Source of the DNA: Caldifarciminota bacterium | GTDB lineage: Bacteria > Hydrothermota > UBA3072 | Direction of reading: 5' to 3' | NCBI GenBank assembly: GCA_016930175.1 | Contig: JAFGHJ010000041.1 | Span: forward strand, 1-39,594 | Length of the DNA stretch: 39,594 nucleotides | Shown here: positions 6,135 to 21,995 of the stretch, one piece after another | Layout of the letters: each line of letters starts with the position of its first letter | Position numbering within the stretch: position 1 is the first letter of the stretch | Notes under the pieces: model-generated | Databases searched by the model: none | What the model was told of the DNA's origin: nothing | What the model saw: only the letters and a program-made list of their open reading frames with translations | Made by a program: the position numbers and the translations under genes

Positions 6135-6807
6135 TAAGTTCTTTTTGAACCTGAACTAATTTCAGTTTTTCCTTCGCTTCTTCAAGAACTTCAGCATCTT
6201 CAGATATTTCAAATATTTTTTTAAGAGCAATTTCGGCTTCATCCGTTTGCTGCTGACCAAGATATAGCCTGGCAAGACTCAGTAAGCATTCTGCCTTAGA
6301 AAAATTATCTTTAAATTTGTCCGCTGCCAATCTATAATTATCTATGGCTTTAACCAAATCGCCTTTTTGCTCATAACACTGTCCGATCCCCTGATAGGAA
6401 CTGGGAGTAAAAAACCCATCGTAATTTCCATTTACAAAATCCTGGAATTTGTCCAGAGCATCATCCAAATTACCTTCCTTATAGCTTATGTTAGCCAACA
6501 TAAATTTCGAACGGTTAGCAAAAGCTGTACCCCAATATTTATCAACGACTGTTTGGAATCTATCCCGCGCCTGACTAAAATTACCACTATTGTATAAAAT
6601 CACACCCATATTATACATTTCTTTTGATTCTGCCATTTTTGTTTGTTTGTTACTTTTGTAAGTAAACAAAATTACAAGAAGTATGACAATGCCGGTTGCC
6701 AGCCATAAGACCGTTTTTTTATGATGTTCGTAAAAAACAATTATATCTTCAATTGTTTCCTTAAATTCATCGTGCTTTAAATCCTTTCTTCTGTATCTTG
6801 CCATCAT
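6127..6807 (-). CDS. YfgM-like membrane-anchored TPR protein
   Basis: A 226-residue protein. A basic, cytoplasmic N-terminus (MMARYRRKDLKHDEF) leads to one membrane helix at about 33-50 (VLWLATGIVILLVILF). Four to five TPR-type repeats follow, including YNMGVILYNSGNFSQARDRF and GIGQCYEQKGDLVKAIDNYR. The layout matches YfgM, an ancillary protein of the SecYEG translocon that helps envelope-protein folding, but similar TPR anchors exist, so the role is inferred. The start is one of two adjacent ATGs (6807 or 6804) behind GGGGGA. It lies 17 nt downstream of tRNA-Arg and is probably co-transcribed with it, the M24-like gene and the rhomboid gene. Confidence 0.75.
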   Translation of the reverse strand: MMARYRRKDLKHDEFKETIEDIIVFYEHHKKTVLWLATGIVILLVILFTYKSNKQTKMAESKEMYNMGVILYNSGNFSQARDRFQTVVDKYWGTAFANRSKFMLANISYKEGNLDDALDKFQDFVNGNYDGFFTPSSYQGIGQCYEQKGDLVKAIDNYRLAADKFKDNFSKAECLLSLARLYLGQQQTDEAEIALKKIFEISEDAEVLEEAKEKLKLVQVQKELNE

Positions 6808-7061: not shown

Positions 7062-10000
7062 TCAATATCTCCATTCCAGGTTAAAAAGGAATCTTGTTGT
7101 TCCCTCAAAGTCCTTTTCAGCCGACATGTAACCCCATTTTTTCAACTTATACTCAGCCTGAACTTCAGATATTCCGTAAGATTGAAGATCAGTTCTGGCT
7201 TTGACAAAAAGTTTATCAGTTACATACTTACCAACAACAAATTCATAATGTCCGCTTCCTCCCTGCATTTCCAAAACGTCAATACCGAACTCTTCTTTCA
7301 ACCTGCGGTTCAGAGTCTGCCTCACCCAGTAATTAAAAGCTGTTTCGGTGACTGACTGCCCAATAGGCTTAACAGAAGTTAGATCTTCCCAACCAAGATT
7401 TAAGGAAAGCAGGGTCATTATTTCAGCTTTAGATAGAGAAGACTTGGAATACAAATCAAACTCGGGTGTCTTCATTGTTCCAGAAACCACAAGGAATACT
7501 GTATCTTGTTCATGATTTCCATTAGATCTGGAAGAAATAAGGGTTATCGCCTTAACATCAATGTTCGGATTTATTTCCGTAGATTCATTAAAATTGAATT
7601 TCCCCTCTACAACTTCAAAACTTTTGTAAAGATAGTAAAACATCCCTTGTCTTACCTCTAAATTTCCCGAAAGTAAGAGTGGTCCGCCTTGATAACTTAC
7701 TCCTACCTTTCCAGCCAGTTCAATATTGGCAAGGTCGTTTCTTATCCAAACGTTTCCCTGATTCGCATCAAAGGTCAAATCCAGAAAAAGATTCGAAGGG
7801 CGTCTGCCCTTTTCTCCTTTTTGTTCAAATTCCATTGTGATCGTAGCTCTACTAAGTTCTACATTCCCCTCTATTCGGATATCTTGACGGTCTTTTCTCA
7901 ATATTAAATCTCCGTCGATAATCGTGTTGACATATTGCCAATTAATTGGTGTATTTTTTAAAGACATTTTAATATCAAAGTCATTATCTCTCAGGTTAAC
8001 TATACCCTCTGCTTGAACCTTACCTTCACCCAACAATGCTGAGATATTTTCTAATTTTCCTTCTGCACCCTGGAATGAAGCCATAGCCTTTAGTTCTTTT
8101 ATCTTTATTCCCGGATTCTTCACGAACAAATCTGCTTCCTGGAGAATGATTCTCCCATAAATCAAAGGTTCTTTAAATGGACCCTTAACTTTTAAGTCTC
8201 CAGATAACTTAGCCATATTAGCAGTCAAATATTTCATCAAGGGAGAAAACACCCAACTACCAGCTTCTTTTAAGTTCATATCCACATCCAGGTATTTCTT
8301 CTCGGCATCAATCATCCCATCAAAATTCGAATATTTTCCATTTTCAATAACTGATAAGTTTTTTATAAAAATACTGTTATCTTCGTACCGGAGATCAAAA
8401 GTCAAAGAATCCCCTATTTTCTCTTCCTCCATTACTATCTTTCCTCCCCCTTTAAAATTAAAAGCGGGAGCGTCTGGCGTTCCTGCAATAGAAATCTTAC
8501 TTGAAACCTTACCCGAAAAAGGGTGTGAAATTAAACCGAATTCACTTAAAAACTCGGGTCTAAATCCTATCAAATCCAAATCTCCTTTAATTCCAAGCGC
8601 GGATAACGACAAATTGTTAATTTGAAAATCTTCCCCTTTATTACCTAAAAATCTTACGCCTTGCAAACTTAAGTCGTGTTTATAAGCAAATGAAAAGGGA
8701 GCAACTAAGTAAAGCCATCCACCGGGATATTCGAATCTAATATAGTTCACTTCCACAGTATCTAAATGTTGAGCAAAATTATAGTTTAATTTCTTGTTTT
8801 TACTTTTAAAAAGACCTTTTACCGCTAATTTATGATTTGCTATTTCAAGAGCAGATTCTCCAAACTCAAATATCTTTCTATCTTTAAAGGAAAAATCTCG
8901 CGACACTAAGGTTATTGTACCGGGAAAACTCCCTTTCCCTTGAGTAAGATTCAAGTTTCCGCCTACAGACTTCAATCTTATATCACCGTAAGTTAAATCC
9001 CTCAATGAAAAAGACCCATATATTTCGTCATCAATCGATAAACCTATGTCTAATACAGCAGATGTTTTAATTCCGAGAAATTTTGCAATAGGCGAGACGT
9101 CTAATTTGTCAATCTGTAAATTACCGTCTATTTTATCGGTGTATACTCCGGAAAAAACAAAATTCCCCCCATTGAAATAACCTTTACAACTATCGACATA
9201 TATATTTTTTCCCTTCTTGGTCATTCCAAGATTTAGATTTTCTAAAGGACTTTTAAGTACTTCTCCCTTTAGTTTAGAAATAACACAAAAGGTATCTTTA
9301 CCCATGTAATTAAAATCGATAAGACCCGATAACTTTGAAGAAGGATATTTACTATTTATTTTTTTAATATCAAAATCAGTTAGTTTAATTTGTCCATAAA
9401 TTCCACCCATAAAATTAAAAAATCCCGAGAAATTCTCTCCTTCTATTTGTACGGAATCCTTGATTCCCGCAAAATCGAATTGAGGCAAATTGAACCCCCG
9501 CAAATCAGCTATTTGACTTCGGCCTTCAAAAGTAATAGTGGTATCATAAGTAAAAAATACATCCAGGAAACCCTCACCTTTAATGCCAAACATTCTCTCC
9601 AAATCAGAAAGGTATATCTTACCATTCCCTTCTATTTTACCAAAAGTATCGCTTCTAATCTCAAATTCAGAATTTCCGATTCGGAGTTCTTTTACATTCA
9701 TGCTCGAAATTCTATCCGATACAGATAAATTAATATCTTGCACATCGAAAGGGATATCGTCTATTTTTCCCCAGATTCTTGGAAGACCAAGAACAATTTC
9801 TCCTTTCCCCGTAGAAAAAATCTCTCCGCTTCCATTTATCTGAAAATCATGCCCTTTCCATCCCACAGAGCCATCAAGCACTTCAATTTCCTCAATATAA
9901 AAGAGCGCAGAAATACTACTTTTTTCTCCGCCTTCTTTTCTCTCACTTATTGAAAACGAAGGAGAATCGAAAGATATTTTTTTTATCCTACGACTTAAAA

Positions 10001-10247
10001 GACCCATAGGCGAATAAAACACTTCCACTTTTGGAAGATAACCAAGGTCTTTGATGTATATTGAGTCTGCAGACACGCCGGTTACCCCTTTAAGCTTTAC
10101 ACTCCCAAGATAACTGCCACGAGGGAGCACAGAAATTATACGCCGTTCCAAGAGGTTCTCTATTTTTATAACTGCCAAATCCGATAGAAGACCCAGAAGA
10201 ACAATAAAAATCAAAAAAGAGAAAATAACAATGAGCTTTTTTTTCAT
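7062..10247 (-). CDS. tamB: TamB-family translocation/assembly module protein (DUF490)
   Basis: A 1061-residue protein with an N-terminal signal anchor (KLIVIFSFLIFIVLLGLL). A long run of amphipathic beta repeats typical of AsmA/TamB-like lipid-channel proteins follows. The C-terminal TamB (DUF490) domain includes GQSVTETAFNYWVRQTLNRR, DVLEMQGG, VVGKYVTDKLFVKART and a terminal aromatic LEWRY. TamB spans the periplasm and acts in outer-membrane protein assembly or phospholipid transport. Its usual partner TamA is not next to it. The start ATG shares one base with the stop of the upstream Roadblock gene (TAATG), so it is translated as the last gene of the chemosensory operon, an unusual setting. 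The family call is firm, but its relation to the signalling genes is inferred. Confidence 0.9.
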   Translation of the reverse strand: MKKKLIVIFSFLIFIVLLGLLSDLAVIKIENLLERRIISVLPRGSYLGSVKLKGVTGVSADSIYIKDLGYLPKVEVFYSPMGLLSRRIKKISFDSPSFSISERKEGGEKSSISALFYIEEIEVLDGSVGWKGHDFQINGSGEIFSTGKGEIVLGLPRIWGKIDDIPFDVQDINLSVSDRISSMNVKELRIGNSEFEIRSDTFGKIEGNGKIYLSDLERMFGIKGEGFLDVFFTYDTTITFEGRSQIADLRGFNLPQFDFAGIKDSVQIEGENFSGFFNFMGGIYGQIKLTDFDIKKINSKYPSSKLSGLIDFNYMGKDTFCVISKLKGEVLKSPLENLNLGMTKKGKNIYVDSCKGYFNGGNFVFSGVYTDKIDGNLQIDKLDVSPIAKFLGIKTSAVLDIGLSIDDEIYGSFSLRDLTYGDIRLKSVGGNLNLTQGKGSFPGTITLVSRDFSFKDRKIFEFGESALEIANHKLAVKGLFKSKNKKLNYNFAQHLDTVEVNYIRFEYPGGWLYLVAPFSFAYKHDLSLQGVRFLGNKGEDFQINNLSLSALGIKGDLDLIGFRPEFLSEFGLISHPFSGKVSSKISIAGTPDAPAFNFKGGGKIVMEEEKIGDSLTFDLRYEDNSIFIKNLSVIENGKYSNFDGMIDAEKKYLDVDMNLKEAGSWVFSPLMKYLTANMAKLSGDLKVKGPFKEPLIYGRIILQEADLFVKNPGIKIKELKAMASFQGAEGKLENISALLGEGKVQAEGIVNLRDNDFDIKMSLKNTPINWQYVNTIIDGDLILRKDRQDIRIEGNVELSRATITMEFEQKGEKGRRPSNLFLDLTFDANQGNVWIRNDLANIELAGKVGVSYQGGPLLLSGNLEVRQGMFYYLYKSFEVVEGKFNFNESTEINPNIDVKAITLISSRSNGNHEQDTVFLVVSGTMKTPEFDLYSKSSLSKAEIMTLLSLNLGWEDLTSVKPIGQSVTETAFNYWVRQTLNRRLKEEFGIDVLEMQGGSGHYEFVVGKYVTDKLFVKARTDLQSYGISEVQAEYKLKKWGYMSAEKDFEGTTRFLFNLEWRY

Positions 10248-10708
10248 TATTCAAACAAATTGTCCATAAGTTTTTCCCCATCTATCCTTTTAATTGAAGG
10301 AATTTTCTTACGGCTATTTTTATTTATCTCTTTTTTTAATCTTGACGCAAGTTTTTCCGATAAAACTCTGACAGAGCCTAACGATGCTTCATCCTTGAAT
10401 ATTACGACCAATAAAAACTGAGGACTTATATTTTGATAAAATAAGTTCCAGGCTTGCCCTTTAATAAAAAACTGCTTAAACTGATGTTCATCGACGATTT
10501 TAGCCAGCTCCTCAGTAGCGTTAAATACACTTGCAAGAAGGGCGGTTATCGTAGAAATTCTCTTTTCTTCTTTATGACCCGAATACACAAGTACTTCTCC
10601 ACTTTTTGCGGCAAAAAAAATGTGTTGTGCTCCCGTTCTAACTAGAAAATTCTCGAGAAATCTCTCGATTTTTTTCTGAATTTCATATAAAAGTATAATT
10701 GTTGACAC
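10247..10708 (-). CDS. Roadblock/LC7-domain protein (MglB-like), C-terminally extended
   Basis: A 153-residue protein. A helix (EIQKKIERFLENFLVRTG) leads into the Roadblock fold: AQHIFFAAKSGEVLVYSG, the helix ISTITALLASVFNATEELAKI, and strands ending FLLVVIF. A basic, lysine-rich C-terminal tail of about 35 residues follows. Roadblock proteins dimerise and typically regulate small Ras-like GTPases (MglB on MglA) or act as scaffolds. No GTPase is encoded in the window. The start appears to be GTG at 10708-10706, directly abutting the upstream stop (TAAGTG), with only a weak GAAGAA upstream. I see no alternative in-frame ATG nearby. Confidence 0.8.
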   Translation of the reverse strand: MSTIILLYEIQKKIERFLENFLVRTGAQHIFFAAKSGEVLVYSGHKEEKRISTITALLASVFNATEELAKIVDEHQFKQFFIKGQAWNLFYQNISPQFLLVVIFKDEASLGSVRVLSEKLASRLKKEINKNSRKKIPSIKRIDGEKLMDNLFE

Positions 10709-11041
10709 TTATAATTCTTCGGAAATTGCTTTTACGCATCTGCGCAGCTCAAACCGGATTTTTCCCGTATCGATGTCTGTAACCGTAAAAATACCTAAAA
10801 TAAAATCTCTCTGCGTAACAAGAAAAAGGTTCTTTTCTTTAGCCATGACACTTATTGAGAAATTGTTATTTATCCCCATCTGGGTCGAGAGTTCTTTAGT
10901 TATGGCAGCAATTAAAGCGGACACTAAAGATTTATCCGATTTATCATCTCCTGCGTTCTCTACGATTTCACCCTCTCTATCTACCAAATAACACGATAGT
11001 ACACCATCAATTGATGCGATTTCCTCCATTATTTTTTTCAT
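10709..11041 (-). CDS. Roadblock/LC7-domain protein (minimal)
   Basis: A 110-residue single-domain Roadblock protein. IDGVLSCYLVDREGEIVEN forms the first strands, SLVSALIAAITKELSTQMG the central helix, and FSISVMAKEKNLFLVTQ with FILGIFTV the following strands. It is close to the canonical MglB size. The ATG overlaps the upstream stop (TAATG) and GGGAG precedes it. It is the middle of three consecutive Roadblock-containing genes, so homo- or heterodimers are likely. Its partner is unknown. Confidence 0.85.
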   Translation of the reverse strand: MKKIMEEIASIDGVLSCYLVDREGEIVENAGDDKSDKSLVSALIAAITKELSTQMGINNNFSISVMAKEKNLFLVTQRDFILGIFTVTDIDTGKIRFELRRCVKAISEEL

Positions 11042-11742
11042 TACTCAACTCCCAAAAGCTCAATAGTTTTATGAAAACCCTGTATCAAGATATCCTCAAA
11101 CTCACTGAGTAGGATATTTTTAGTGGTGAGAACAATAAACCTTAAAGTCTCTGAACCCAGCACAATAATATTTCCGCCTGGCAATTCAAAAAAAACTTTA
11201 CTTATCGATCCCAATCCGAGATCCTTCGAAGAAAATCTTATTTTATCGTAAATCGAGGAAATTATTGCTCCGGTAGATTCACGCTCCATTGGCAATTCGA
11301 TACTTGCTTCTATCAAGGCTCCTATATCGTCGACCACTAAAACCCCTATAATTCCTTTTACCTTAAGCAAATTATTAAGAACCTCGCTAAGCGAACCGCC
11401 TAGCTCGACCTTGGTTTTCTTTTTTTTATCTTTTATTATCTTTTCTGTCTTCTCTTTTTTTGTATCTAATTTTAAGGATTTGAGAAGTTCATTGATTTCT
11501 TTATCATCAGGGCTGATTCTAATTGCATTTTTTAAAATTTCGGCCGCTTCCTTTTCCTCTCCCTCGCTTATATAAATTTTGCTCAACATAGAATAAGGTT
11601 TTATTTCTTCCCTGTTTTCCTTAATAGCGGTTTTTAGAAGATCTTTCGCCTCATCGACCAACCCATTTTCAACATAAAGACCGGCAAGAGAAATCAATAC
11701 GTCTAAGGAATTAACATCGGGTCGTAGCCCCTTTTCATTCAA
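11041..11742 (-). CDS. TPR-Roadblock/LC7 fusion protein
   Basis: A 233-residue protein. Residues about 10-95 form two to three TPR units (LISLAGLYVENGLVDEAKDL, YSMLSKIYISEGEEKEAAEI). A lysine-rich linker follows at about 95-112. A Roadblock domain covers about 115-233 (LSEVLNNLLKVKGIIGVLVV, TGAIISSIYDKIRFS, FIVLTTKNILL). The fusion joins the TPR theme of its upstream neighbours to the Roadblock theme of the two genes downstream, strengthening the view that these proteins form one complex. GGGAGG precedes the ATG, and the gene overlaps the DUF4388 gene by 8 nt. Confidence 0.85.
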   Translation of the reverse strand: MNEKGLRPDVNSLDVLISLAGLYVENGLVDEAKDLLKTAIKENREEIKPYSMLSKIYISEGEEKEAAEILKNAIRISPDDKEINELLKSLKLDTKKEKTEKIIKDKKKKTKVELGGSLSEVLNNLLKVKGIIGVLVVDDIGALIEASIELPMERESTGAIISSIYDKIRFSSKDLGLGSISKVFFELPGGNIIVLGSETLRFIVLTTKNILLSEFEDILIQGFHKTIELLGVE

Positions 11743-12751
11743 TTAAAACCTCCCAATTTACAATCTTTTTATGAATTCCTTTTACCAGATCAAGAGTTTC
11801 TCTGATTTCCTTTTTTTTATTTTCATCACCAGACAGAACCAAAAAAGAATTCCATTCAGAGATAGCTTCTTTAAACCTTCCCTCGGCAAGATAAAAATAA
11901 CCCATATTGTAGGAAATGCGTGAATCGTCAGGGTACATTTCCTTTAGTTTGAATAATTCCTTAAGTCCATCAGTAAACTTACCTTTGTTCCATAGCCTCT
12001 TCAACTCTTTAATCTTATCTGTCTCTTTTCCAATAGATGTTTTGTTTTCTTTGATTATATCATCTACGGGAATCTTCTTCTCGGTTATTATACCAGTCAT
12101 GGTCATACCATACAGAGATTTCATCACAGCAAATTTATCGCCTATTTTGTTTATAAGGGCACTTATGGTCAGATTCCCATCGATAAGGGAAAGCAACTTC
12201 CAATCCATTGGCGACAGATTTATTTGTTCTTTTTCTATTAAGTCAGTTGAAACCTCAAGAACAATATCGGTATTTGGCAAAATTTCTTCCATTTTGGAGA
12301 TTTCGTCAATTCTCCTCGCTGCTTCTAATATTATATTTTCTATCTTTATATCTAAGGTAAGGTAATCCGGAATTTCAAAGTCCGTCTCGCGAAAACTAAA
12401 ATGACCACTTTTTATTAGGAAAAGAGAGTAAAGTACATCAATTGCTGTTTGTTTAAATACTGTTTTAAAGGTACTAAGGGGAATTATATTGTTTTCAATT
12501 AAATAGTCGACGAATTTATTATCAGCCACTTCTATCACTTCATCTTTGGTCAAAAAACCCCTTTTCAAAAACTCGTTTTTCAATCTTTCGGGAAAATCAA
12601 CCGAAGCAAGATTACCTCTATCGAAATAAAGAACATAGGACTTAACAATATCTTCACCGCTTATTGTTAAAATCCCTTTCTTCTCAGCCAGGGAAATTAA
12701 CTGAAAAAGTTCAAAAAGTCCCAATTCTTTTATCGGTCCCTCAATAGGCAT
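11735..12751 (-). CDS. DUF4388 (PATAN) domain protein with C-terminal TPRs
   Basis: A 338-residue protein from the ATG at 12751-12749. A TTG codon just before it (12754) could extend it by one residue. The ATG shares a base with the upstream stop (TGATG), behind GGGAGAG. Residues about 1-100 have the PATAN/DUF4388 pattern (GLFELFQLISLAEKKGIL, YVLYFDRGNLASVDF), known from bacterial signalling proteins including PatA-type response regulators. The middle (LSPMDWKLLSLIDG) resembles the helical DUF4388-associated segment. About 240-338 contain TPR helices (YNMGYFYLAEGRFKEAISEW). The domain is thought to mediate protein interactions. Here it sits between a TPR scaffold and the Roadblock proteins. 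Confidence 0.8.
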   Translation of the reverse strand: MPIEGPIKELGLFELFQLISLAEKKGILTISGEDIVKSYVLYFDRGNLASVDFPERLKNEFLKRGFLTKDEVIEVADNKFVDYLIENNIIPLSTFKTVFKQTAIDVLYSLFLIKSGHFSFRETDFEIPDYLTLDIKIENIILEAARRIDEISKMEEILPNTDIVLEVSTDLIEKEQINLSPMDWKLLSLIDGNLTISALINKIGDKFAVMKSLYGMTMTGIITEKKIPVDDIIKENKTSIGKETDKIKELKRLWNKGKFTDGLKELFKLKEMYPDDSRISYNMGYFYLAEGRFKEAISEWNSFLVLSGDENKKKEIRETLDLVKGIHKKIVNWEVLIE

Positions 12752-15390
12752 CAAATCTCTCCCGTAATATTTCTAAGTCGCAACAAACTTTCAATAGCTT
12801 GTCTTGCTTTTCCTAATACTTTTTCGTCCTTCGCCTCATTTACTATATTATTCCATAAATCTTCTGCTTCTTTATATCTTCCTTGCTTGAAATACAAAGA
12901 AGCGAGAAGATGATAAGCTTCAAAATTTTTGCTGTCAAATCCGACGGCTTGTTTTAAACTATTTACAGCTGCATCGATTTCATCTTTATTGTATAAGGCT
13001 TTCGCCTCCCACAAAGCCAAATCGCCATCAGCTTTTATAACTTCTTTAGCTTCCTTTGCACTCTTTATCACAGCATCGTAGTTCTTGGCGACCAGACAAG
13101 TTTTAACCAAAGCTTTCAATATTCGCTTATCTTTCGGGGCCAATCTTTTTGCTTTTGACAGAGCTTCAATTGCACCCTGCAAGTCACCTTCTCTAACCTT
13201 CTGATTGGATAACTGATAATATCCTTCGGCAGAGGGAGAAATAGAAAGGCTTTTCTCGATAAAAGAGTTGGCCGTTTTCTTTTTCCCTAATTTAAAATTA
13301 ATGGACGCAAGTTCCAGCAAAATTCCGTTTTCTTTTTGCCAGGCAGGAAATGTCTTGAGAAGTTCGATTGCCTTGTTATACTTTTTCTTTGTTTTCAGAT
13401 ATTGAGCAGAAGCAATATAAGGAAAAGATTCTTCGGGATATTTCCTGTTGAGTTCTTTGGCAAGAGCTAAAGCCGAATCCCATTCTTTATTTTCCTGATA
13501 TATTTTTGTCAATAACTTCGAAGCCTCAAGGTTAGAAGGTACTAACACACGTAAAACATCCTTTGCCTCTCCAAGTAAATCTTTCTTTTCATATACTTTA
13601 CCCAAAAGGAGCAATAGTTCTTCATTTTCAGGCTCTACATTTCTAGCTTCAGACAAAACTTCCAGGGCTTCGTTCAATTTATTCTCTTTAAGTAAGGCAG
13701 CAGCTTTATTAATTTCTTTTTTAATATCTACTTCCGGTTCAATCTCTTCTCTCGGTGCCTCAAAAAGGTCTCCAAAGAAATCTTCGGCAGTCTCTTCTCC
13801 TGCAACTCTTCCGACTTCCATATCCTTTGTTAATTCCCTTGCAACTAGAATTCCAAGACGCTCAGAGTAAATATCTACCCCTAATTTAAATCTATTGCTC
13901 GAATAGTACGGATCTATTTCCATGGCTTTTTTCGTGGCCTCAAGCGCCTCATCATACTTACCTATTCGGGATAAGGCAAAACCGAGATTATAAAGAGCCT
14001 CGGCGAAACTATCATCCCGCTCAACAGCCATTCTGAAGAAATATATTGCGTCTTCGAACCGCTCAAGACTCAAGTAAACCGACCCGAGGTAATTAAAAGG
14101 AAGCGGGTTTTCTCCTTTCATTTCAATAACTTTTTTAAAAAATCTTTCGGCGCTTTCGTAATTGCCTCTCGTCATATAAACAAGACCAATATTCAAATAT
14201 GGATCAGAGTATTCGGGGTTTATTTCTTTTGCTCTTTTCAAACAATTAAAAGCTTCTTTCGGAGCACCAGAATGGTAATAAGCGACTCCAAGATTGTTCC
14301 ATGAAACAGCATAATTAAGATCTTTCGAAATCGCTCTCTTATACCATGAAATAGCATCTTCGAGCTTTCCCAATCGGTGATATGCAATCCCGATATTATT
14401 TGCTAATTTGGGTAAATCAGGATCCTGTTTGAGAGCCTCCAGGTAAGCCTTTATCGCTTCTTCATTGTCACCCATAAATAAGTAAACTTCTCCTATTTGC
14501 TCTCTTACAAGAGAATTACTCGGATCAGCCTTTACGGCTTTTTTAAGTTCCTGAAGAGATTCTTTAAACAATCCTTTGTTTTTGTAAGCAAGTCCCATGG
14601 CATAAAAACCAAAAGAAGGGTTTGCCTCAATTTTATCCTTTGAGACAGAGAGGAAATCCTCGTAGCCCTTCCTTTTATAAAGACCCAAGCTTAAGTTAGC
14701 TTCTGTTTTTGCAAAACGAGGGTTTAAATTTATTGCCTTTTTTGCTGCTTTAGTCGCTTCATCAAATTTACCTTCCTCGCCGTATGTAAAAGACAGCAAA
14801 TAGTAAGATTCCGCGTCCTTGGGATTAAGTCGGATTGCCGTTTTTAACTCTTCAATAGCCGAGGAAAACATTCCCAAATTATAATAAACTTCTCCCAGAT
14901 ACTTATGAGCAGAGTCGTTGTTCTTATCTAAACGAATAACTTTTTTGAACTGCTCAACGGAAGGCTCATAGAATCCGCTGGCTTTACAAGCCACACCCAT
15001 ATCCAAAAGAGCTTGAACATCGGAAGGCTTCTGTCTTAAATACTTGCTATATTGGTTTATAGCCTCGTAATAATTACCTATACTCTTATAAGCTCTTGCC
15101 AGTTCGAGTCTGGATTCAAAGTCGTCCGGCTCCCGCTCCATTTTGTTTTTAAGCCTCTCAATTTGCTCGTCATAGAAACCGGTACTTCTATATATATAAT
15201 CAAGGTTATTCTTAGCCAGAGTGAAATGCGGATCAATTCCAAGCGCTTTTTTTAACTCTTCAACAGCTTCTTTCACTAAACCTTTATTATAGTAAACAAC
15301 AGCAAGATTATTATGTGAGCCTGAATCGGTAGGCTCAATTTTTTTAGAAAATAATTTCAATAGCTTCTTTTCTTGTTCGGATATTTCCAT
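12751..15390 (-). CDS. Large tetratricopeptide-repeat scaffold protein
   Basis: An 879-residue soluble protein with no signal peptide or membrane helix. From residue about 20 to 500 it is nearly continuous 34-residue TPRs with the W/L-G-Y-A-P pattern (LAVVYYNKGLVKEAVEELKK, NLGVAYYHSGAPKEAFNCLK, NIGLVYMTRGNYESAERFFK). An acidic, non-TPR linker at about 505-560 (ERLGILVARELTKDMEVG, then AEDFFGDLF) is followed by a second TPR block to the end. TPR superhelices bind peptides and assemble complexes, so a scaffold role for the Che and Roadblock proteins is inferred. It starts 9 nt after cheC with a poor ribosome site and overlaps the next gene by one base. Confidence 0.85.
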   Translation of the reverse strand: MEISEQEKKLLKLFSKKIEPTDSGSHNNLAVVYYNKGLVKEAVEELKKALGIDPHFTLAKNNLDYIYRSTGFYDEQIERLKNKMEREPDDFESRLELARAYKSIGNYYEAINQYSKYLRQKPSDVQALLDMGVACKASGFYEPSVEQFKKVIRLDKNNDSAHKYLGEVYYNLGMFSSAIEELKTAIRLNPKDAESYYLLSFTYGEEGKFDEATKAAKKAINLNPRFAKTEANLSLGLYKRKGYEDFLSVSKDKIEANPSFGFYAMGLAYKNKGLFKESLQELKKAVKADPSNSLVREQIGEVYLFMGDNEEAIKAYLEALKQDPDLPKLANNIGIAYHRLGKLEDAISWYKRAISKDLNYAVSWNNLGVAYYHSGAPKEAFNCLKRAKEINPEYSDPYLNIGLVYMTRGNYESAERFFKKVIEMKGENPLPFNYLGSVYLSLERFEDAIYFFRMAVERDDSFAEALYNLGFALSRIGKYDEALEATKKAMEIDPYYSSNRFKLGVDIYSERLGILVARELTKDMEVGRVAGEETAEDFFGDLFEAPREEIEPEVDIKKEINKAAALLKENKLNEALEVLSEARNVEPENEELLLLLGKVYEKKDLLGEAKDVLRVLVPSNLEASKLLTKIYQENKEWDSALALAKELNRKYPEESFPYIASAQYLKTKKKYNKAIELLKTFPAWQKENGILLELASINFKLGKKKTANSFIEKSLSISPSAEGYYQLSNQKVREGDLQGAIEALSKAKRLAPKDKRILKALVKTCLVAKNYDAVIKSAKEAKEVIKADGDLALWEAKALYNKDEIDAAVNSLKQAVGFDSKNFEAYHLLASLYFKQGRYKEAEDLWNNIVNEAKDEKVLGKARQAIESLLRLRNITGEI

Positions 15391-15399
15391 TTTAAATAT

Positions 15400-16017
15400 C
15401 TATAAGAGATTCATCGCCTTTAAAATATTACTCAGACTTTCAGAATCTGGTATTAATAGAAGGAAAGTCTCAAGGTGACTATCAGTGTTTTTAAAATGAA
15501 AGATACTTTTTACGCAGAAGACGAATTCTTCTCCGGCAGTAAATTCGAGATAAGCACTTGAAATTATAGACCGGAAATCATCCCATACAATTATCGGCAC
15601 TGAAGGTAAAAGCATAAGGCCAAGAAATTCGGATATCGCACTAAGATAAGAACTGCAAAGGATATTAGCCACTTCTTTGATCGAAGAAATTCCCATTTCG
15701 TCAATTTCCGAATAATCTGATATCTCTTTATCAAGTAAAATACCGACAAGAAGTTTCGCATCTTTATCGTCCAACACTACAAGATTTCTGCCAGTAGCAT
15801 CACCGAAAAACTTAGTGAGAGCAGCAACAGCAATACTACCTTTTAGGTTTAATATCTCGGATGTCTTTTCAATGGGAAAAATTTCGATTTCCGGCACCTT
15901 CACTTCGACTTGCTTATTCAACATTTGACTTAAAGCCGTAGCTGCATGCCCTCCACCAATATTGGCAGCTTCTTTTATACCATCCAATTGTAAATCTTTA
16001 AGATCCTGTATTTTCAT
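15400..16017 (-). CDS. cheC: CheC-type CheY-P phosphatase
   Basis: A 205-residue protein with both CheC active-site copies of (D/S)xxxExxN: D12-E16-N19 in LDGIKEAANIGGGHAATALS, and S111-E115-N118 in SSIKEVANILCSSYLSAIS. The family dephosphorylates CheY-P, and two intact sites predict an active phosphatase. CheD, the common CheC partner, is absent here. A strong AGGAGGAG precedes the ATG at 16017, and the gene overlaps the end of cheA by 20 nt, fitting joint expression with the kinase whose signal it ends. Confidence 0.92.
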   Translation of the reverse strand: MKIQDLKDLQLDGIKEAANIGGGHAATALSQMLNKQVEVKVPEIEIFPIEKTSEILNLKGSIAVAALTKFFGDATGRNLVVLDDKDAKLLVGILLDKEISDYSEIDEMGISSIKEVANILCSSYLSAISEFLGLMLLPSVPIIVWDDFRSIISSAYLEFTAGEEFVFCVKSIFHFKNTDSHLETFLLLIPDSESLSNILKAMNLL

Positions 16018-17803
16018 AACTCCTCCTATATCTTAAAGCAGGCAAGTCCAAAATCAAACAAGGTCTTCCGTCCCCAATCATCGTAATACCTATGTATCCT
16101 TTAATTCTATCGATTGGCGAAGGTAAAGGCTTGACAACTGCTTCCATACTTCCTCTAAAAGTTCCCCCTACAATGGCAAAACGGTCATTCTCTATTTCAA
16201 CAACTACACATGGCGCATGCTGGTTTCCATTACTTGAAGAACGTTGCCTTAGAATGTCGGAAAGACGATAAACAGGAAGAATTTCTCTACGAAGCAACAT
16301 TACTTCTTTTCCCATAAGACGCGACAAAGAATCGGCTGAAACCGTTAACGTTTCATCAACAAAAGTCATAGGCAACGCGAACAACTGATTATCTAAACCA
16401 AGCAGATAAACTTTAATTATCGACATAGAAAGAGGCATTTTCATTGATATCGTTGTTCCTTTATTTTTTTCGGTATTTATATTAACACTTCCCCCTACAG
16501 AGCGTACAAGCTTTCGCACCACATCTAATCCAACGCCTCGTCCGGAAACTTTATCAACTTTTTCCTTAGTTGTAAATCCCGGAGCAAATAAAAATCTTAA
16601 TATTTCTCCTTTTGAAAGAGATTCCATCTCCTCTTCTTCTACCAAACCCCTCTTGAATGCAACAAGGATAACTTCTTTTTCATCTATCCCTTTCCCATCA
16701 TCGCTTATCTGTATCAATATATCTCCCTTTACGCTTTTCGCCGAAACAGTTATTTTCCCAACTCTGTGTTTGTTCAATTTTTCTCTCTCCTCGGGAGACT
16801 CAATACCATGAGAGACAGAATTTCTAATAAGATGAATCAGGGGATCACCGATCCCCTCAAGAAGAGAACGATCAACTTCGATATCCGCTCCAAAAATTTC
16901 AATATTCACTTCTTTTCCTAATTTCCTGCTCAAATCTCTGACGTATCTCGGAAATTTATCAAAAATCAACGATAGGGGCACCAGTCTGATCTTCGTAATA
17001 ACTTCCTGCAATTCCTTCACGCTTCTGCTATGAAGGTCTAAAACCCCCTGAAATTTTTCTTCACCAAAACTTCTAATAATTTCGGATAATTGAGACGTAG
17101 TAACAACCAATTCACCAACAAGATTTTGCATTCTATCCAGCATATTCACGTTAACTCTTATACCTTCAATCCCGCTGGGCGAAGTTCTTCCTGAACTTTT
17201 CTTATCCTCAAATTTAACTGTTTCGACTTCATCAATGGAAGCAACTAAGTCTATAATCTTTTCGGGTTCGGCGCAACGAACTTTTAATATTCTCCCAATA
17301 TTACCGGACTTAATTTCCTCGTAAGAGGGATCTACGCTTTCAATTTTCGTCTTTTCTTGTATTCTTTGAATAATTACAGCCGCTCTCGCAGCCGGGAGGG
17401 AAACATCCTCTTTGAGTAAAATTTCAAGATAGGGCATATCACCGATTTCTGGACTTGCCTCTTCTCCGGTTTTCTCTTGTCTCTCCAGCGTTGCCAAAAG
17501 ACTTTCTATTCTGTCAATACCTTTAAACACTTCATCTATAATATCGGCATCAACCTTTCTTTTTTCTCCTTCTTTAAAAACCTCCATTTTCTCTTCAAGG
17601 TCATGAGAAATGGTTTCTATCTCAGTATAACCAAGAGAAGCAGCCATTCCTTTCAGCGTATGGAAAATTCTGTAAACCTCAGCAGTTATCTTTTTATTAT
17701 CGGGTTCTTTCTCAAGTTCGACAATTATTTTATTCAGTTTACTTAAATACTCACTGCTTTCTTCTTTAAATAGTTTTATATACTCTGCTCTCTGCTCGTC
17801 CAT
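15998..17803 (-). CDS. cheA: Chemotaxis-type histidine kinase CheA
   Basis: A 601-residue protein with classical P1-P5 order. The HPt domain (about 1-105) has phospho-acceptor H48 in FHTLKGMAASLGY. A P2-like domain (about 120-205) resembles those of Thermotoga/Bacillus-type CheA. The P3 dimerisation helices carry VNVNMLDRMQNLVGELVV. The HATPase domain has the N box LIRNSVSHGIE, G1 DDGKGID and G2 GRGVGLDVV. The C-terminal CheW-like domain (about 455-595) includes FALPMTFVDETL. It autophosphorylates under control of the receptor-CheW array and passes phosphate to CheY. Only 10 nt separate it from cheY. No good Shine-Dalgarno precedes the ATG. Confidence 0.96.
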   Translation of the reverse strand: MDEQRAEYIKLFKEESSEYLSKLNKIIVELEKEPDNKKITAEVYRIFHTLKGMAASLGYTEIETISHDLEEKMEVFKEGEKRKVDADIIDEVFKGIDRIESLLATLERQEKTGEEASPEIGDMPYLEILLKEDVSLPAARAAVIIQRIQEKTKIESVDPSYEEIKSGNIGRILKVRCAEPEKIIDLVASIDEVETVKFEDKKSSGRTSPSGIEGIRVNVNMLDRMQNLVGELVVTTSQLSEIIRSFGEEKFQGVLDLHSRSVKELQEVITKIRLVPLSLIFDKFPRYVRDLSRKLGKEVNIEIFGADIEVDRSLLEGIGDPLIHLIRNSVSHGIESPEEREKLNKHRVGKITVSAKSVKGDILIQISDDGKGIDEKEVILVAFKRGLVEEEEMESLSKGEILRFLFAPGFTTKEKVDKVSGRGVGLDVVRKLVRSVGGSVNINTEKNKGTTISMKMPLSMSIIKVYLLGLDNQLFALPMTFVDETLTVSADSLSRLMGKEVMLLRREILPVYRLSDILRQRSSSNGNQHAPCVVVEIENDRFAIVGGTFRGSMEAVVKPLPSPIDRIKGYIGITMIGDGRPCLILDLPALRYRRSYENTGS

Positions 17804-17813
17804 AAATTTTCGC

Positions 17814-18179
17814 TTACAGTTTTAAAACCCTCTGAACTGCTTCTATAACTCGTGAAGGCTGAAAAGGTTTGACCACATAGTCCTTTGCTCCAGCCTGGAT
17901 AGCTTCAACAACCAAACTCTGGTGTCCCATAGCACTCACAACCACAATTTTGGCTTCGGAATCTAATTCTTTTATTTTTTTAATTGCCTCTATTCCGCTC
18001 ATGTCAGGCATTATTATATCCATAGTAACGAGATCTGGTTTATTTTTCTCGTATTTCTGGACGGCTTCACTACCGTTTCCCGCTTCATCGCAGATCTCGT
18101 AACCGCCTTTCTGAAGTATATCCGCCAACATCTTCCTCATAAATATTGCATCATCTACTACTAAAATCCTTGCGCTCAT
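17814..18179 (-). CDS. cheY: CheY-like single-domain response regulator
   Basis: A 121-residue stand-alone receiver domain. Phospho-acceptor D54 lies in TMDIIMPDMSG. The acidic pocket is D9/D10 (LVVDD), the switch Ser is S82 (VVVSAMG) and the conserved Lys is K104 (VVKPF). The sequence is of the Thermotoga/Bacillus CheY type. With no output domain it should act by binding a partner, either a flagellar switch or, here, possibly one of the TPR, PATAN or Roadblock proteins encoded downstream. AAGGAGG precedes the ATG. It lies 15 nt after cheW and 10 nt before cheA. Confidence 0.95.
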   Translation of the reverse strand: MSARILVVDDAIFMRKMLADILQKGGYEICDEAGNGSEAVQKYEKNKPDLVTMDIIMPDMSGIEAIKKIKELDSEAKIVVVSAMGHQSLVVEAIQAGAKDYVVKPFQPSRVIEAVQRVLKL

Positions 18180-18194
18180 TTTTGCCTCCTTACG

Positions 18195-18596
18195 TCATAT
18201 TAATTCTTTTATGTCAATAATTATATATTTTTCTTTCAATTTCACAATTCCTTTCATATACTTTGACTCTATTTCCCCTTTTAAGCTGGAAGGAACATTT
18301 TTTATTTCCGAACCAGAAACTTCATGGATATCAAGGACTCTGTCCGGTCTTAAACCCACTACCATACCATTAATTATACAGAGTATAATTTCACGTGAGG
18401 TAGATTTGCCCGTGAGGCCTATCTTCTTCCTCAAATCTATCACCGTGATAGGTTCTCCACGGAGATTCATTACTCCTTCAAGATAATCACTCGATAAAGG
18501 AACCGGAGTTATTTCTTTTTCTTCAACAATTTCCTTTACATTTTCCAACGGTATGCCAAAGAATTTATCTTCTAAAGTAAAGCTCAAAAATTCCAT
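18195..18596 (-). CDS. cheW: CheW adaptor protein
   Basis: A 133-residue protein consisting of one CheW domain: LSFTLEDKFFGIPLENVKEI, then LEGVMNLRGEPITVIDLRKK with the conserved NLRG, and a C-terminal GIVKLKEKYIIIDI. CheW links chemoreceptor tips to CheA. The ATG overlaps the stop of the receptor gene (TAATG) behind GGAGTT, so adaptor and receptor are translationally coupled. It is the only CheW gene in the window and is expected to dock onto the signalling hairpins of the upstream fusion receptor. Confidence 0.95.
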   Translation of the reverse strand: MEFLSFTLEDKFFGIPLENVKEIVEEKEITPVPLSSDYLEGVMNLRGEPITVIDLRKKIGLTGKSTSREIILCIINGMVVGLRPDRVLDIHEVSGSEIKNVPSSLKGEIESKYMKGIVKLKEKYIIIDIKELI

Positions 18597-21500
18597 TATT
18601 CAACTCCAACCCATTCATAATGTAAGCGATTAAGCAAATCTGATCGGACACCAAAAACTCTATCACTAAGTAGTAAAAAATTAGTATCGTAATCAAGAAA
18701 AACAAAAGGGGCTTCTTCTACTATCATTTTTTCCGACTCCTGACATAATTTTTTTCTAAGAACCGGATTTATTTCTCTCATTCCCTCTTTTATTTTGTTA
18801 TCAAGAATTTTATTGGAATAAAAGGTTAAATTTCCTCTACCAGCCTGAGAAGAGTGGAAAAGAGAAAATAAAAAATCGTTAGGATCAACACTATCAGGAA
18901 CCCAACTACTCAAAAATAACTGTGCCCTCCCCTCTTTAACTTTTTTTGTGAATTTTCCCCAGGGATTTTTCTCGATTTTCAAAGTAACTCCGATACCGGA
19001 AAAAGCCTCCTTTATAAATTCGGCTCTTCTGATCATAATGGGAGAATCATAAATTGAGAGAGTATATGTCTCAGGTAAACCTCCGTCAAAACCCGCCTCC
19101 TCAAGAAGCTTCTTTGCTTTCGCCTCATTATATTCATATCCTTCTATTTCAGGATTATATGTGTTAAATCCTGAGTGGAACAGACCCTTTGGAATTTCAC
19201 CAAAACCTGAAGAGGTCTCTTCTATAATAACCTCTTTATCTATTGCGTGGTTCATCGCTTGACGAACCTTCTTATTACTAAAAGGAAGTTCCTTCATATT
19301 AAAGTTAAAGCCAAGGTAATTCATATTCAAACAAACGGACGAAAATAAATTTTTACTTAAGTCCTTATCAATTTTAATGCTGGAAACAGATTCCGCAGGA
19401 ACCCTTACAATATCAAATACACCACTCTTGAATTCTTCCACAGGATCCCCCCCGGCCGTAAAAATGACTCTTGATAAATAAGGTTTACCTGCGAAATAAT
19501 CTGAATAGGATTCCAAAACTATTTTTTCTTCTTTTTTCCAATTTTGCAATTTAAATGGTCCTATACCTATAATACCATTCTCATCGGAATCTTTTGCCAT
19601 TATAGACGAATTGAGTTTTGCTAAATCTGAAAGAAAAGACATATTAATTTCACTTAATCTAATCGAAAAGGAATATTTGCCTTTAATTTCTATTTCATCA
19701 ATCAAACCAAAAGAGCTGATTTTATCACTTTCTTTTAATCTTTCGAGCGTAAATTTGACATCTTCGGAATCGATTTTTCTTCCTTTATGATCTTTAATAT
19801 CTTCCCTTAATGTAAAATCCCACCTTTTAACATCTTCCGATAGCTCCCACCTTTCCAACATCAAAGGATATACCTGACCTCGTAGGCCCGAATCAAATAA
19901 TCCTCTATGTATAAGATAAATGATTTCATTTGTCACGGGATCCTCAAATTTTGAAGGGTGCAAAGAAACCGGAATTTTCTGAAGATAGATATTCAGCTTC
20001 GATTCGCTATCCTTTTCCATAACTTCGAAGGCACTCAGGTTTTTCCAATTATGATCCTGAGTAAGATTCTCGGTTAAACTTTTCTCTTTATCTAAATTTT
20101 TCTCAAGCTCTTCGGTAGCTTCTGTGTACTTTTTCAATGCTTCGACTACCGCAACAAAAGAATTACCAATTTCCCCAATCACATCTTCCTGTTTATCAAT
20201 AAAAGGTCTAATACTTGAAGAAACTTCCGTCAAAGTTTCTATTTGGTCTTTATTTTCTTGAAATGCAACCTCGCTTTCGTTAACGATATCCTTAAGTCTA
20301 CTTATTGTATTATCAATCGTTAGAGTTGTCCTTCTTAAATCCTCGATCTTCTCGTTCACCGGGTTAAAAAACCGCCACAATTTGTCACCTAATTTCGAAT
20401 AATCATTGGAAAGCTTCTGCATTTCATCTACAATCGAAGAAAGCCCTTTTATATCATGCGGCACTCTTGATGCTTCTATTTTTCCATAAAGTGAAATAAC
20501 TCTTAATTGTTCTGCAAAATCTCCCGCGTTTTCAACTAATCTTCCTAAACCGGAGGAAATTCTGGATAAATTTACCTGAATATTTGCAACCTCATCTATA
20601 CCTATTGCTTCTTTCTCTATAAAAGACTGAACACTCTTAATATTACTAAGACATAAATTTGCCTGATATTGTGTTACCTTAATAATTTCTTTTAGCCCTT
20701 CAATCTCTCTTCCAATCATCCCCAACATTTTCTTCATACTATCTAACTCAGATAAGTCAAGATTGCTTTGCATAGGAGTCGAACTTAAGGCTACAACACT
20801 AAGCTGGCTATAGCGATCAAGCTTGTCAACCTCTTTCAAGGCAAAATCTATTTGTGAAATATTAAAAGGCAAGAGAGCTGAGCCCTTTTCAACCAAGTAA
20901 CTAAAAACATCTATATGATTCTTTAAAATTTCTATGACTGCTCTTCTTTGAGAAAGCAAAAGGTCTATTTCTCCCAACTTCAAAAGCGTATCTCTTGATA
21001 AAGAAAGTAAAAAATTAGCTGTCTCTTCAATATCGCGTCTTTTTATGTCAATATTTTCAAGCAAATTTAACAATTTATCTGATGTATCCATGACAAGAGA
21101 AATTTTATCTCGCACCTCATCGGAACTTTGCTTTAAATCATCCGCATTTACGATAAAATTGGAGAGACTTTCTCGTATAGCTCCGAATTTGTCTGTAGCT
21201 TCCTTCGATCTATCTTTGAGAGATTCAAGTCTTTCCACCATCTCTTTGACAATCTCCAATGATTTTCCCGTTAACCTTCCCAATTCTTCGGCTACCACTT
21301 CGAATCCTTTGCCTAAAGCTCCAGCTTGATAAGCCTTGATCTCGGCGTTTCTGGCTGTATTACCTGAGGTTTCGTTGAGTTCCTGAAGACTTGATACTAT
21401 CGTATTGATTTCTTCCCTTTTGCCAATCAAATCTTCTAACTTCTGGCTAAGATTAACGGTGCTGTCACTAAAGAAATGAATCCTGTTCATTACTTCATTT

Positions 21501-21742
21501 ATTAGACTGAGACCGAAAGACAACAATTCTTCACTCTTTCTGACAGTAATCCTGAAAGAATCAGAACCTTCGTAGATAACATACATAGAAGCATACAAGT
21601 TTTTTAACATCTTTCTTATTTCCGTTAACTCCGCAGATGATTCCATCTGTTTGGTGGAAAGTTGATTCCAAAGAAAAGCCGTCTCTTTAGATAAATCCTC
21701 TAATTTACCTATGTATTCCTTTACAGTGTCATTTGCTTCCAT
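18596..21742 (-). CDS. Soluble fusion receptor: two chemoreceptor-like signalling segments plus an SBP_bac_5 (oligopeptide-binding) domain
   Basis: A 1048-residue protein from the ATG at 21742. Residues about 1-575 are long coiled coils with two regions resembling the chemoreceptor hairpin tip: NAEIKAYQAGALGKGFEVVA followed by EELGRL (about 132-157), and LRVISLYGKIEASRV followed by GLSSIVDEMQKL (about 413-444). Residues about 581-1048 form a full extracellular solute-binding family 5 domain (LIHRGLFDSG, YPLMLERWELSED, WDFTLREDIKDHKGRKIDSE, KVRQAMNHAIDKE, YNEAKAKKLLEEAGFDGG). No signal peptide or membrane helix is visible, so a domain usually periplasmic appears to be cytoplasmic. The open frame runs upstream to 21850, but that part crosses a repeat and the promoter, so I reject it. 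There is no clear Shine-Dalgarno. It is the first gene of the operon. Confidence 0.85.
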   Translation of the reverse strand: MEANDTVKEYIGKLEDLSKETAFLWNQLSTKQMESSAELTEIRKMLKNLYASMYVIYEGSDSFRITVRKSEELLSFGLSLINEVMNRIHFFSDSTVNLSQKLEDLIGKREEINTIVSSLQELNETSGNTARNAEIKAYQAGALGKGFEVVAEELGRLTGKSLEIVKEMVERLESLKDRSKEATDKFGAIRESLSNFIVNADDLKQSSDEVRDKISLVMDTSDKLLNLLENIDIKRRDIEETANFLLSLSRDTLLKLGEIDLLLSQRRAVIEILKNHIDVFSYLVEKGSALLPFNISQIDFALKEVDKLDRYSQLSVVALSSTPMQSNLDLSELDSMKKMLGMIGREIEGLKEIIKVTQYQANLCLSNIKSVQSFIEKEAIGIDEVANIQVNLSRISSGLGRLVENAGDFAEQLRVISLYGKIEASRVPHDIKGLSSIVDEMQKLSNDYSKLGDKLWRFFNPVNEKIEDLRRTTLTIDNTISRLKDIVNESEVAFQENKDQIETLTEVSSSIRPFIDKQEDVIGEIGNSFVAVVEALKKYTEATEELEKNLDKEKSLTENLTQDHNWKNLSAFEVMEKDSESKLNIYLQKIPVSLHPSKFEDPVTNEIIYLIHRGLFDSGLRGQVYPLMLERWELSEDVKRWDFTLREDIKDHKGRKIDSEDVKFTLERLKESDKISSFGLIDEIEIKGKYSFSIRLSEINMSFLSDLAKLNSSIMAKDSDENGIIGIGPFKLQNWKKEEKIVLESYSDYFAGKPYLSRVIFTAGGDPVEEFKSGVFDIVRVPAESVSSIKIDKDLSKNLFSSVCLNMNYLGFNFNMKELPFSNKKVRQAMNHAIDKEVIIEETSSGFGEIPKGLFHSGFNTYNPEIEGYEYNEAKAKKLLEEAGFDGGLPETYTLSIYDSPIMIRRAEFIKEAFSGIGVTLKIEKNPWGKFTKKVKEGRAQLFLSSWVPDSVDPNDFLFSLFHSSQAGRGNLTFYSNKILDNKIKEGMREINPVLRKKLCQESEKMIVEEAPFVFLDYDTNFLLLSDRVFGVRSDLLNRLHYEWVGVE

Positions 21743-21758
21743 ATATTTATTTGATAAT

Positions 21759-21787
21759 AAATTATCAATAAATGACTTAATTGTCAA
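21759..21787 (-). promoter_or_regulatory. Promoter of the chemosensory-Roadblock-tamB operon
   Basis: Consensus TTGACA (21787-21782) is followed by a 17-nt spacer and TAATTT (21764-21759), with TGA immediately before the -10 as an extended element. Initiation near 21752 leaves about 10 nt before the ATG at 21742, with no Shine-Dalgarno. It lies inside the frame extending upstream of the receptor and therefore decides the start. Confidence 0.8.
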
Positions 21788-21805: not shown

Positions 21806-21995
21806 GCTAACAGCTAACAGAATACAGCTTTCAGCCAAAGCACTCCCCACAACCCGGATTTTTTACAAATAGGTAATGTAGAGCTTGTAGTTTACGCTTT
21901 TTGATTAAATTTCTATTTAAAATATGAGCTCTATATGTGTAAATTGTTTTTTCCCTTGTTTTTAGCCGGTTGCTGCGAGCCGTAAGCCGACAGCT
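21806..21995. repeat. Inverted pair of 7-nt-period repeats in the divergent spacer
   Basis: The left arm (21806-21841) reads GCTAACA, GCTAACA, GAATACA, GCTTTCA, GCCAAAG. The right arm (21963-21995) reads GCCGGTT, GCTGCGA, GCCGTAA, GCCGACA, the opposite orientation. About 120 nt of AT-rich DNA without a gene lies between them. The pair occupies the roughly 300-nt spacer between the divergent chemosensory operon and the YbhN-like gene, outside both promoters. The same paired layout occurs at 6952-7041. Confidence 0.7.

Follow-up and report, generated by a model that had tools for sequence, protein, structure and literature searches.

The window analysed here is a stretch of 39,594 nucleotides of contig JAFGHJ010000041.1 from a Caldifarciminota bacterium (assembly GCA_016930175.1, genome G000 below). 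Between positions 7062 and 21742 of the window, all on the reverse (-) strand, the genes of a CheA–CheY chemosensory relay are followed by those of Roadblock proteins of the polarity type and of TamB. The locus raises the question of what such a relay controls. The genes probably form one half of a single chemosensory system spread over two operons, in which the CheA–CheY relay sets an MglA/MglB polarity switch and hence the activity of type IV pili. This reading is carried by the gene content, the conserved gene order, the preservation of the catalytic residues in CheA, CheY and CheC, and the two halves being joined in other clades. The function of the system we infer from these genes. The term operon is used here on the basis of gene adjacency.

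The operon and its proteins

The operon consists of 11 genes with intergenic distances of -20 to +15 nt. In reading order they encode a chemoreceptor with an SBP_bac_5 domain, CheW, CheY, CheA, CheC, a protein of 879 residues composed of tetratricopeptide repeats (TPRs), a PATAN-TPR protein, a TPR-Roadblock protein, a small Roadblock protein, MglB and TamB. A preliminary description of this DNA had placed all the genes that it named on one strand with overlaps or gaps of at most 15 nt, and in this it was accurate. Its count of ten genes was wrong, as its own list contains 11.

The catalytic parts of the relay appear fully preserved. CheA (15998..17803) has domains P1 to P5 according to Pfam (Hpt, P2, dimerisation, ATPase and CheW-like), with a single Hpt domain and no Pfam match to Response_reg. 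Its catalytic residues H48 and N328 are invariant across 18 aligned rows. It is the sole copy found in its genome, the second match covering only 174 bases of the ATPase domain. CheY (17814..18179; Pfam Response_reg, 3e-32) is a single receiver domain with an intact acidic pocket and phospho-acceptor Asp54; D9, D10 and D54 are the same in all 16 seed rows of the alignment. CheC (15400..16017; Pfam CheC, 9e-20) is a predicted CheY phosphatase, both of whose E..N sites are present and invariant in 16 of 16 rows. CheW (18195..18596) is matched by Pfam CheW at 2e-28.

The receptor (18596..21742) is a soluble protein that contains two hairpins of the methyl-accepting chemotaxis protein (MCP) type and a C-terminal SBP_bac_5 domain. 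The MCP match is weak (Pfam MCPsignal, E 1e-13) compared to that of the solute-binding protein (SBP) domain (E 2e-71), which had been missed in the preliminary description. An alignment of 14 such fusions has one fairly conserved and one degenerate hairpin. The window protein has no transmembrane stretch, its highest 19-residue hydropathy being 0.97, and no 19-residue stretch with a hydropathy >=1.6 is found in 12 receptor rows (the window protein and 11 relatives). The nearest solved structures for the SBP part are dipeptide- and heme-binding proteins (5f1q, 2e-44). The choice of 21742 as the start is correct: the frame opens with GTG at 21850, and the proteins of the related loci L036-L038 start at the Met that corresponds to 21742. 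The search with this receptor listed 67 of the 147 genomes of the window's phylum; 46 of these match across both parts (one of them in two pieces) and the others match the SBP part only. In locus L049 (5084-8125, genome G050) the receptor is replaced by a 1013-residue cyclase + AAA_16 + TPR protein, situated directly upstream of CheW. Elsewhere in the window genome, at L180:1529-3601 (G000:C31), there is an SBP_bac_5 protein of 690 residues that begins with a hydrophobic stretch and carries TonB_C at its C terminus; SBP-matching frames of similar length are common in the genomes of the phylum.

The 879-residue TPR protein (12751..15390; Pfam TPR), called the TPR scaffold below, is the best marker of the system; its relatives are 29-76% identical to it in a 15-row alignment. 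It is followed by a PATAN (DUF4388) domain with a short TPR part (11735..12754; Pfam DUF4388, 9e-21) and by the TPR-Roadblock protein (11041..11742; Pfam TPR_19, 6e-9, and Robl_LC7, 4e-6; profile against the PDB roadblock structure 7yh1, 1e-16). The small Roadblock protein, Robl2 (10709..11041), has Robl and LAMTOR matches below the cut-off. Its profile matches 7yh1 at 1e-10 against 4e-5 for MglB, so that it is not specifically MglB-like. The third Roadblock protein, Robl3 (10247..10708), is a homologue of MglB: its profile matches Myxococcus xanthus MglB (6izw) with an E of 1.5e-32 over the full length (positions 3-158 of 159 on 6izw 3-158), including the C-terminal part. It is the predicted GTPase-activating partner of MglA. 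The occurrence of three Roadblock proteins in one operon is consistent with heteromeric regulators of GTPases, which a passage of PMC9481161 gives as a frequent mode of these proteins. The connection of a chemotaxis-type relay to polarity-type Roadblock proteins, proposed in the preliminary description, is thus borne out and is firmer than that description could see, because one of the Roadblock proteins is MglB and related clusters also hold MglA.

A second operon with MglA, adaptation and pilus genes

The window operon has no CheR, CheB or CheD and no pilus gene, as had been stated, but the same genome carries CheR, CheD, CheB and PilT at G000:C23 and two PilB-like ATPases, PilT and PilC at G000:C10. 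The absence of adaptation genes from the system was therefore rejected. The operon at C23, operon 2, reads accB–PilT–accC–MglA–DnaA-AAA–PATAN-TPR–CheR–CheD–CheB–TPR–AAA–CheW–MCP–CheW, then pgpA and cinA, with intergenic distances of -32 to +8 nt. DnaA-AAA denotes a DnaA-type AAA ATPase, and the MCP is of the membrane type. The P-loop, GPGRAGKT, and the TVPGQ switch can be read directly in the MglA of operon 2 (L150:5659-6252). The two MglA copies of the window genome are 57% and 51% identical to that of an Edwardsbacteria genome, the copy in operon 2 being the 51% one; the Edwardsbacteria protein in turn matches M. xanthus MglA (6h17) with an E of 3.7e-82. A third locus of the window genome (L157) contains an MglB–MglA pair. 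FliG was not found in this genome.

The two operons complement each other. The single CheA found in the genome is encoded in the window operon, and operon 2 contains the single CheR match, next to CheD and CheB, which argues for one system. Together, CheA, CheW, CheY, CheC, CheR, CheB and CheD make a complete set for a methylation-adapted chemosensory system in one genome, which also has several receptors.

Operon 2 is kept in genomes G001, G003, G004, G006, G008, G009, G020 and G026, with some genes missing from the listed frames in G003 and G026. PilT lies inside it in all four families of the window's class that were examined (f1-f4) and also in families f9 and f13. In G020, of f13, the acc genes are gone and PilT directly abuts MglA. 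PilT is also found beside chemosensory genes in L151-L156, L158, L181, L182 and L212, and in L181 and L182 the MCP-SBP5 receptor adjoins operon 2. The location of PilT between accB and accC recurs at L150:2728-6252 (G000:C23) and in L151-L154, L158, L181, L182, L210 and L212, a conserved mixture of acetyl-CoA carboxylase and pilus genes that precedes MglA in most such families; the acc genes of the relatives were identified from similarity or gene length.

Conservation and boundaries of the operon

The preliminary description had named uniqueness of the arrangement to this contig as a ground for rejecting its proposal. The neighbourhood search showed that the arrangement recurs in loci of the class, the phylum and other phyla, and uniqueness was rejected. 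A CheA search of 60 relatives, with the window's own genome counted, gave 28 genomes with an E <=1e-58, including 10 of the 10 class genomes; the surroundings of 20 of the best CheA places were retrieved. All 9 class relatives keep the gene order up to the ends of their contigs (for G006 this covers only the CheA-CheC-TPR stretch), with MglB missing in G003. The order receptor–CheW–CheY–CheA–CheC–TPR–PATAN–TPR-Robl–Robl2–MglB is found again in the window's family, order and class and in f13, and is retained in part in f9, f18, f19, f24, f11, f36 and f12. The TPR scaffold is found in 55 of the 147 genomes of the phylum, although only about its first 500 positions align in f11, f18 and f36.

Among the 60 relatives, in raw counts that ignore kinship, strong MglA matches (E <1e-49) occur in 28 of 28 cassette genomes compared to 12 of the 32 others, and strong CheR matches (E <1e-40) in 27 of 28 compared to 1 of 32. 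FliG is over the cut-off in none of the 28 cassette genomes and in 3 of the 32 others. Locus L053 (G017:C5), a second and different che cluster, was left out of the cassette counts, and L209 (G116) was dropped because over half of it reads N. The 738-residue CheA of L053 groups in the tree with a deltaproteobacterial (Myxococcota) one. Several cores lack CheA: that of G012 (L207) lies beside citrate-transporter genes and that of G119 (L210) near PilT, whereas the third, L197, belongs to G307.

In other phyla the two halves are joined. The window-type genes run into MglA, DnaA-AAA, PATAN-TPR, CheR, CheD and CheB in both G060 (Gemmatimonadetes, L163) and G061 (Edwardsbacteria, L165). In G017, a member of the window's phylum, the CheA half joins the CheR/CheD/CheB half without MglA between them (L051), MglA being on another contig. 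Of 200 genomes taken from the phylum of G060, 101 carry the TPR scaffold, as do all 10 genomes searched in the phylum of G061. Loci from sixteen of the 101 genomes, hand-picked over the range of scores, contain CheY (16), CheA (15), CheC (15), CheW (13), the TPR scaffold (16), PATAN (16), TPR-Robl (8), Robl2 (10), MglB (10), MglA (15), DnaA-AAA (14), PATAN-TPR (16), CheR (10), CheD (9) and CheB (12). Weak profiles may account for the lower numbers of Roadblock proteins, and some of the loci without CheR, CheD or CheB matches end or differ at that place. The adjacency of CheC, TPR and PATAN is conserved across phyla, and a Krumholzibacteriota contig has a rearranged version of the cluster.

The control set comprised 77 CheA loci, namely the best 80 of the 592 stretches in a collection scan less three cassette loci; the scan says nothing about absence from other phyla. 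PATAN, MglA, DnaA-AAA, PATAN-TPR, MglB and the TPR scaffold were found in 0 of these 77 loci, and weak TPR-Robl matches in 2. Of the genomes behind the control loci, 40 of 77 were searched for the TPR scaffold, and the single positive one is another Gemmatimonadetes genome. The gene counts in the 16 sampled loci and the 77 control loci come from a stop-to-stop search of all frames with score thresholds set by eye, and the DnaA-AAA profile was built without the chromosomal dnaA genes of L037 and L038. In a quick CheA tree, 35 of the 36 cassette rows fall to the same side of a branch with a support of 94 in the Shimodaira–Hasegawa-like approximate likelihood ratio test (SH-aLRT), separate from a clade of 34 rows that are mainly from Bacillota.

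The next feature downstream of the operon is a tRNA-Arg gene, and a divergent gene lies upstream. A putative promoter, TTGACA-N15-GATAAT (21761..21787, - strand), is situated just upstream of the receptor start. The one strong promoter of the preliminary description is not established, however: the 15-nt spacer is outside the 16-18 range of the promoter scan, so that the element is absent from the results, and the 61 promoter-like sites found are no excess over the 54.7 +/- 6.8 expected by chance. The terminator scan gave 24 sites compared to 13.6 expected, nearly all of them intragenic. The scan thus gave no usable signal of internal promoters or terminators that would split the operon. In L037, L038 and L039 (G002, G005 and G004, from three genera of the family) a gene resembling chromosomal dnaA adjoins the receptor end of the operon. 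Downstream of tRNA-Arg, a TPR protein, an M24 peptidase and a rhomboid-TPR fusion are encoded in overlapping order (3638-6807), and five tRNA genes (Thr, Gly, Tyr, Thr, Ala) are clustered at 135-633 on the - strand.

Proposed function and related systems

By analogy with Myxococcus, where Roadblock proteins set the GTPase rate of MglA and a chemosensory relay flips polarity, we infer that the relay steers polarity here. The window operon would be the kinase, receptor and adaptor half of the system, and operon 2, from PilT and MglA to the membrane MCP, the other half. The cytoplasmic MCP-SBP5 receptor would sense an intracellular small solute, perhaps a peptide, and together with the membrane MCPs would feed a single CheW/CheA array. 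CheC would reset CheY~P, while CheR, CheD and CheB would tune the signalling. CheY~P would act via the TPR scaffold, PATAN and the Roadblock proteins on MglB, and thereby on the GTP state of MglA. Together with the PATAN-TPR and DnaA-AAA proteins, MglA-GTP would set the pole at which type IV pili extend and retract; the activity of PilT would follow, and the cell would change direction. TamB would probably be carried along.

The step from CheY to the scaffold has an alternative. As in Pil-Chp, CheY~P might act directly on the pilus motors, with the Roadblock, TPR and PATAN proteins forming a separate polarity scaffold that shares the operon. The CheY of the window is a free single domain with an intact site, and the cores without CheA keep the TPR and Roadblock proteins together, both in favour of this alternative. 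Nevertheless, G012 and L197 retain CheY with the TPR-PATAN-Roadblock core though CheA is gone, which suggests that CheY belongs to the core. Together with the adjacency of CheC, TPR and PATAN across phyla, this is the best hint of the proposed step and makes direct action on the motors rather unlikely. The output could also be something other than pili, the relay setting MglA-dependent polarity for the division site, secretion, matrix or a second messenger. We consider this unlikely in view of PilT in operon 2 of f1-f4, f9 and f13, the lack of FliG in all cassette genomes and the precedent of Myxococcus, where excerpts of the literature assign MglA to pili and gliding. Such an output would accord with the existence of cores without CheA, with the near universality of T2SSE among the relatives and with the lack of any PilT profile match in the maps of the clusters sampled from the phylum of G060 (16 clusters).

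Chemosensory control of envelope assembly, with TamB as the output, is a highly improbable explanation. TamB (7062..10247; Pfam TamB, 2e-36) overlaps MglB by one base, and it follows or abuts the operon in 8 of the 8 class loci whose contigs extend there (the window, L035-L040 and L042). However, it is found in none of 14 tabulated loci of other families, three of which (L048, L049 and L050) end before that place, nor in the Gemmatimonadetes and Edwardsbacteria clusters. Since TamB is confined to the window's class, it was rejected as the output of the system, and the envelope link of the preliminary description did not hold up. TamB is probably a class-specific passenger.

Several observations weigh against control of pili by a two-operon system through MglA/MglB. 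PilT stands between accB and accC in operon 2 of the window genome, so some neighbours in this operon are passengers. T2SSE ATPases occur in 57 of the 60 relatives, and pilus genes are therefore non-discriminating. PATAN and MglB are not adjacent to the operon in f11 and f36 (L052, L183-L186), and the operon of G003 has no MglB. The CheA of the Krumholzibacteriota contig (L167) is on a long branch outside the cassette clade. The output part is not necessarily dependent on CheA, because cores without it exist in G012 (CheY-TPR-PATAN-TPR-Robl-Robl2), G119 (TPR-TPR-Robl-Robl2) and L197; judging by G012 and L197, CheA is a replaceable input. The genomes are drafts (G000 is 94% complete), which makes absences soft.

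The nearest described relative is the Frz–Mgl system of M. xanthus, in which a CheA system feeds the MglA/MglB switch for surface motility; the present system is known from its genes. FrzCD is a chemoreceptor without transmembrane segments, and the window receptor likewise has none (12 rows). FrzE is a fusion of CheA and CheY, whereas in the window the two are separate and CheA carries no receiver. CheC, CheD, PATAN, TPR-Roadblock and DnaA-type AAA proteins are additional here. The Pil-Chp system of Pseudomonas likewise combines chemosensory genes next to PilT with an output to pili. However, ChpA contains many Hpt domains and a receiver, and the window CheA has one Hpt domain and no receiver. 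We know of no MglA or Roadblock part in Pil-Chp. The architecture of CheA led to the rejection of membership of either system.

The TPR proteins beside MglA recall SgmX, which a passage of PMC11580455 describes as a protein with 14 TPRs that acts with MglA and stimulates pili at one pole. Passages of PMC4316618 provide three further comparisons. M. xanthus mglA is not near the genes of its partners, whereas here the genes form one cluster or two. Some Group 1 and 5 mglA genes are near PATAN genes (Wuichet and Sogaard-Andersen 2014; Makarova 2006 is cited there for mglB), a likeness to the PATAN proteins near MglA/MglB in this system, but these passages do not describe Che genes, the TPR scaffold or AAA proteins in such neighbourhoods. 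The actinobacterial conservons (Cvn) have a kinase, a Roadblock protein and an MglA-family GTPase in one operon; they differ in having four genes and an ordinary histidine kinase, and no CheA array, PATAN or TPR. No description of the same gene set was found in searches of open-licence articles. The preliminary description had doubted that a described system shared this gene set, and in that it stands; Frz–Mgl is nevertheless a closer relative than it held.

The system would thus act like Frz–Mgl but be built from different parts. The Myxococcus genes that lead from the chemosensory kinase to MglA are scattered over the genome, and parts of the pathway are not yet worked out; the FrzZ–RomR step is drawn as a dashed line according to the legend of figure 4 in PMC4316618. 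Here the complete set stays together in several phyla, proteins without an assigned role included, and the missing links are therefore testable gene by gene. A clade-wide, self-contained system that ties a chemosensory array firmly to a Ras-like GTPase switch is possible, if doubtful. In it, CheY~P would work through a Roadblock/TPR/PATAN adaptor in place of RomR, the DnaA-type AAA ATPase would be a novel MglA regulator or effector, and a cytoplasmic, peptide-binding receptor of the DppA type would allow the cell to steer by its internal solute state. The receptor appears, from its sequence, to be a case of a solute-binding domain that works inside the cell as a chemoreceptor. If the proposed function is true, Gemmatimonadetes and several uncultured phyla would ordinarily couple chemosensing to MglA.

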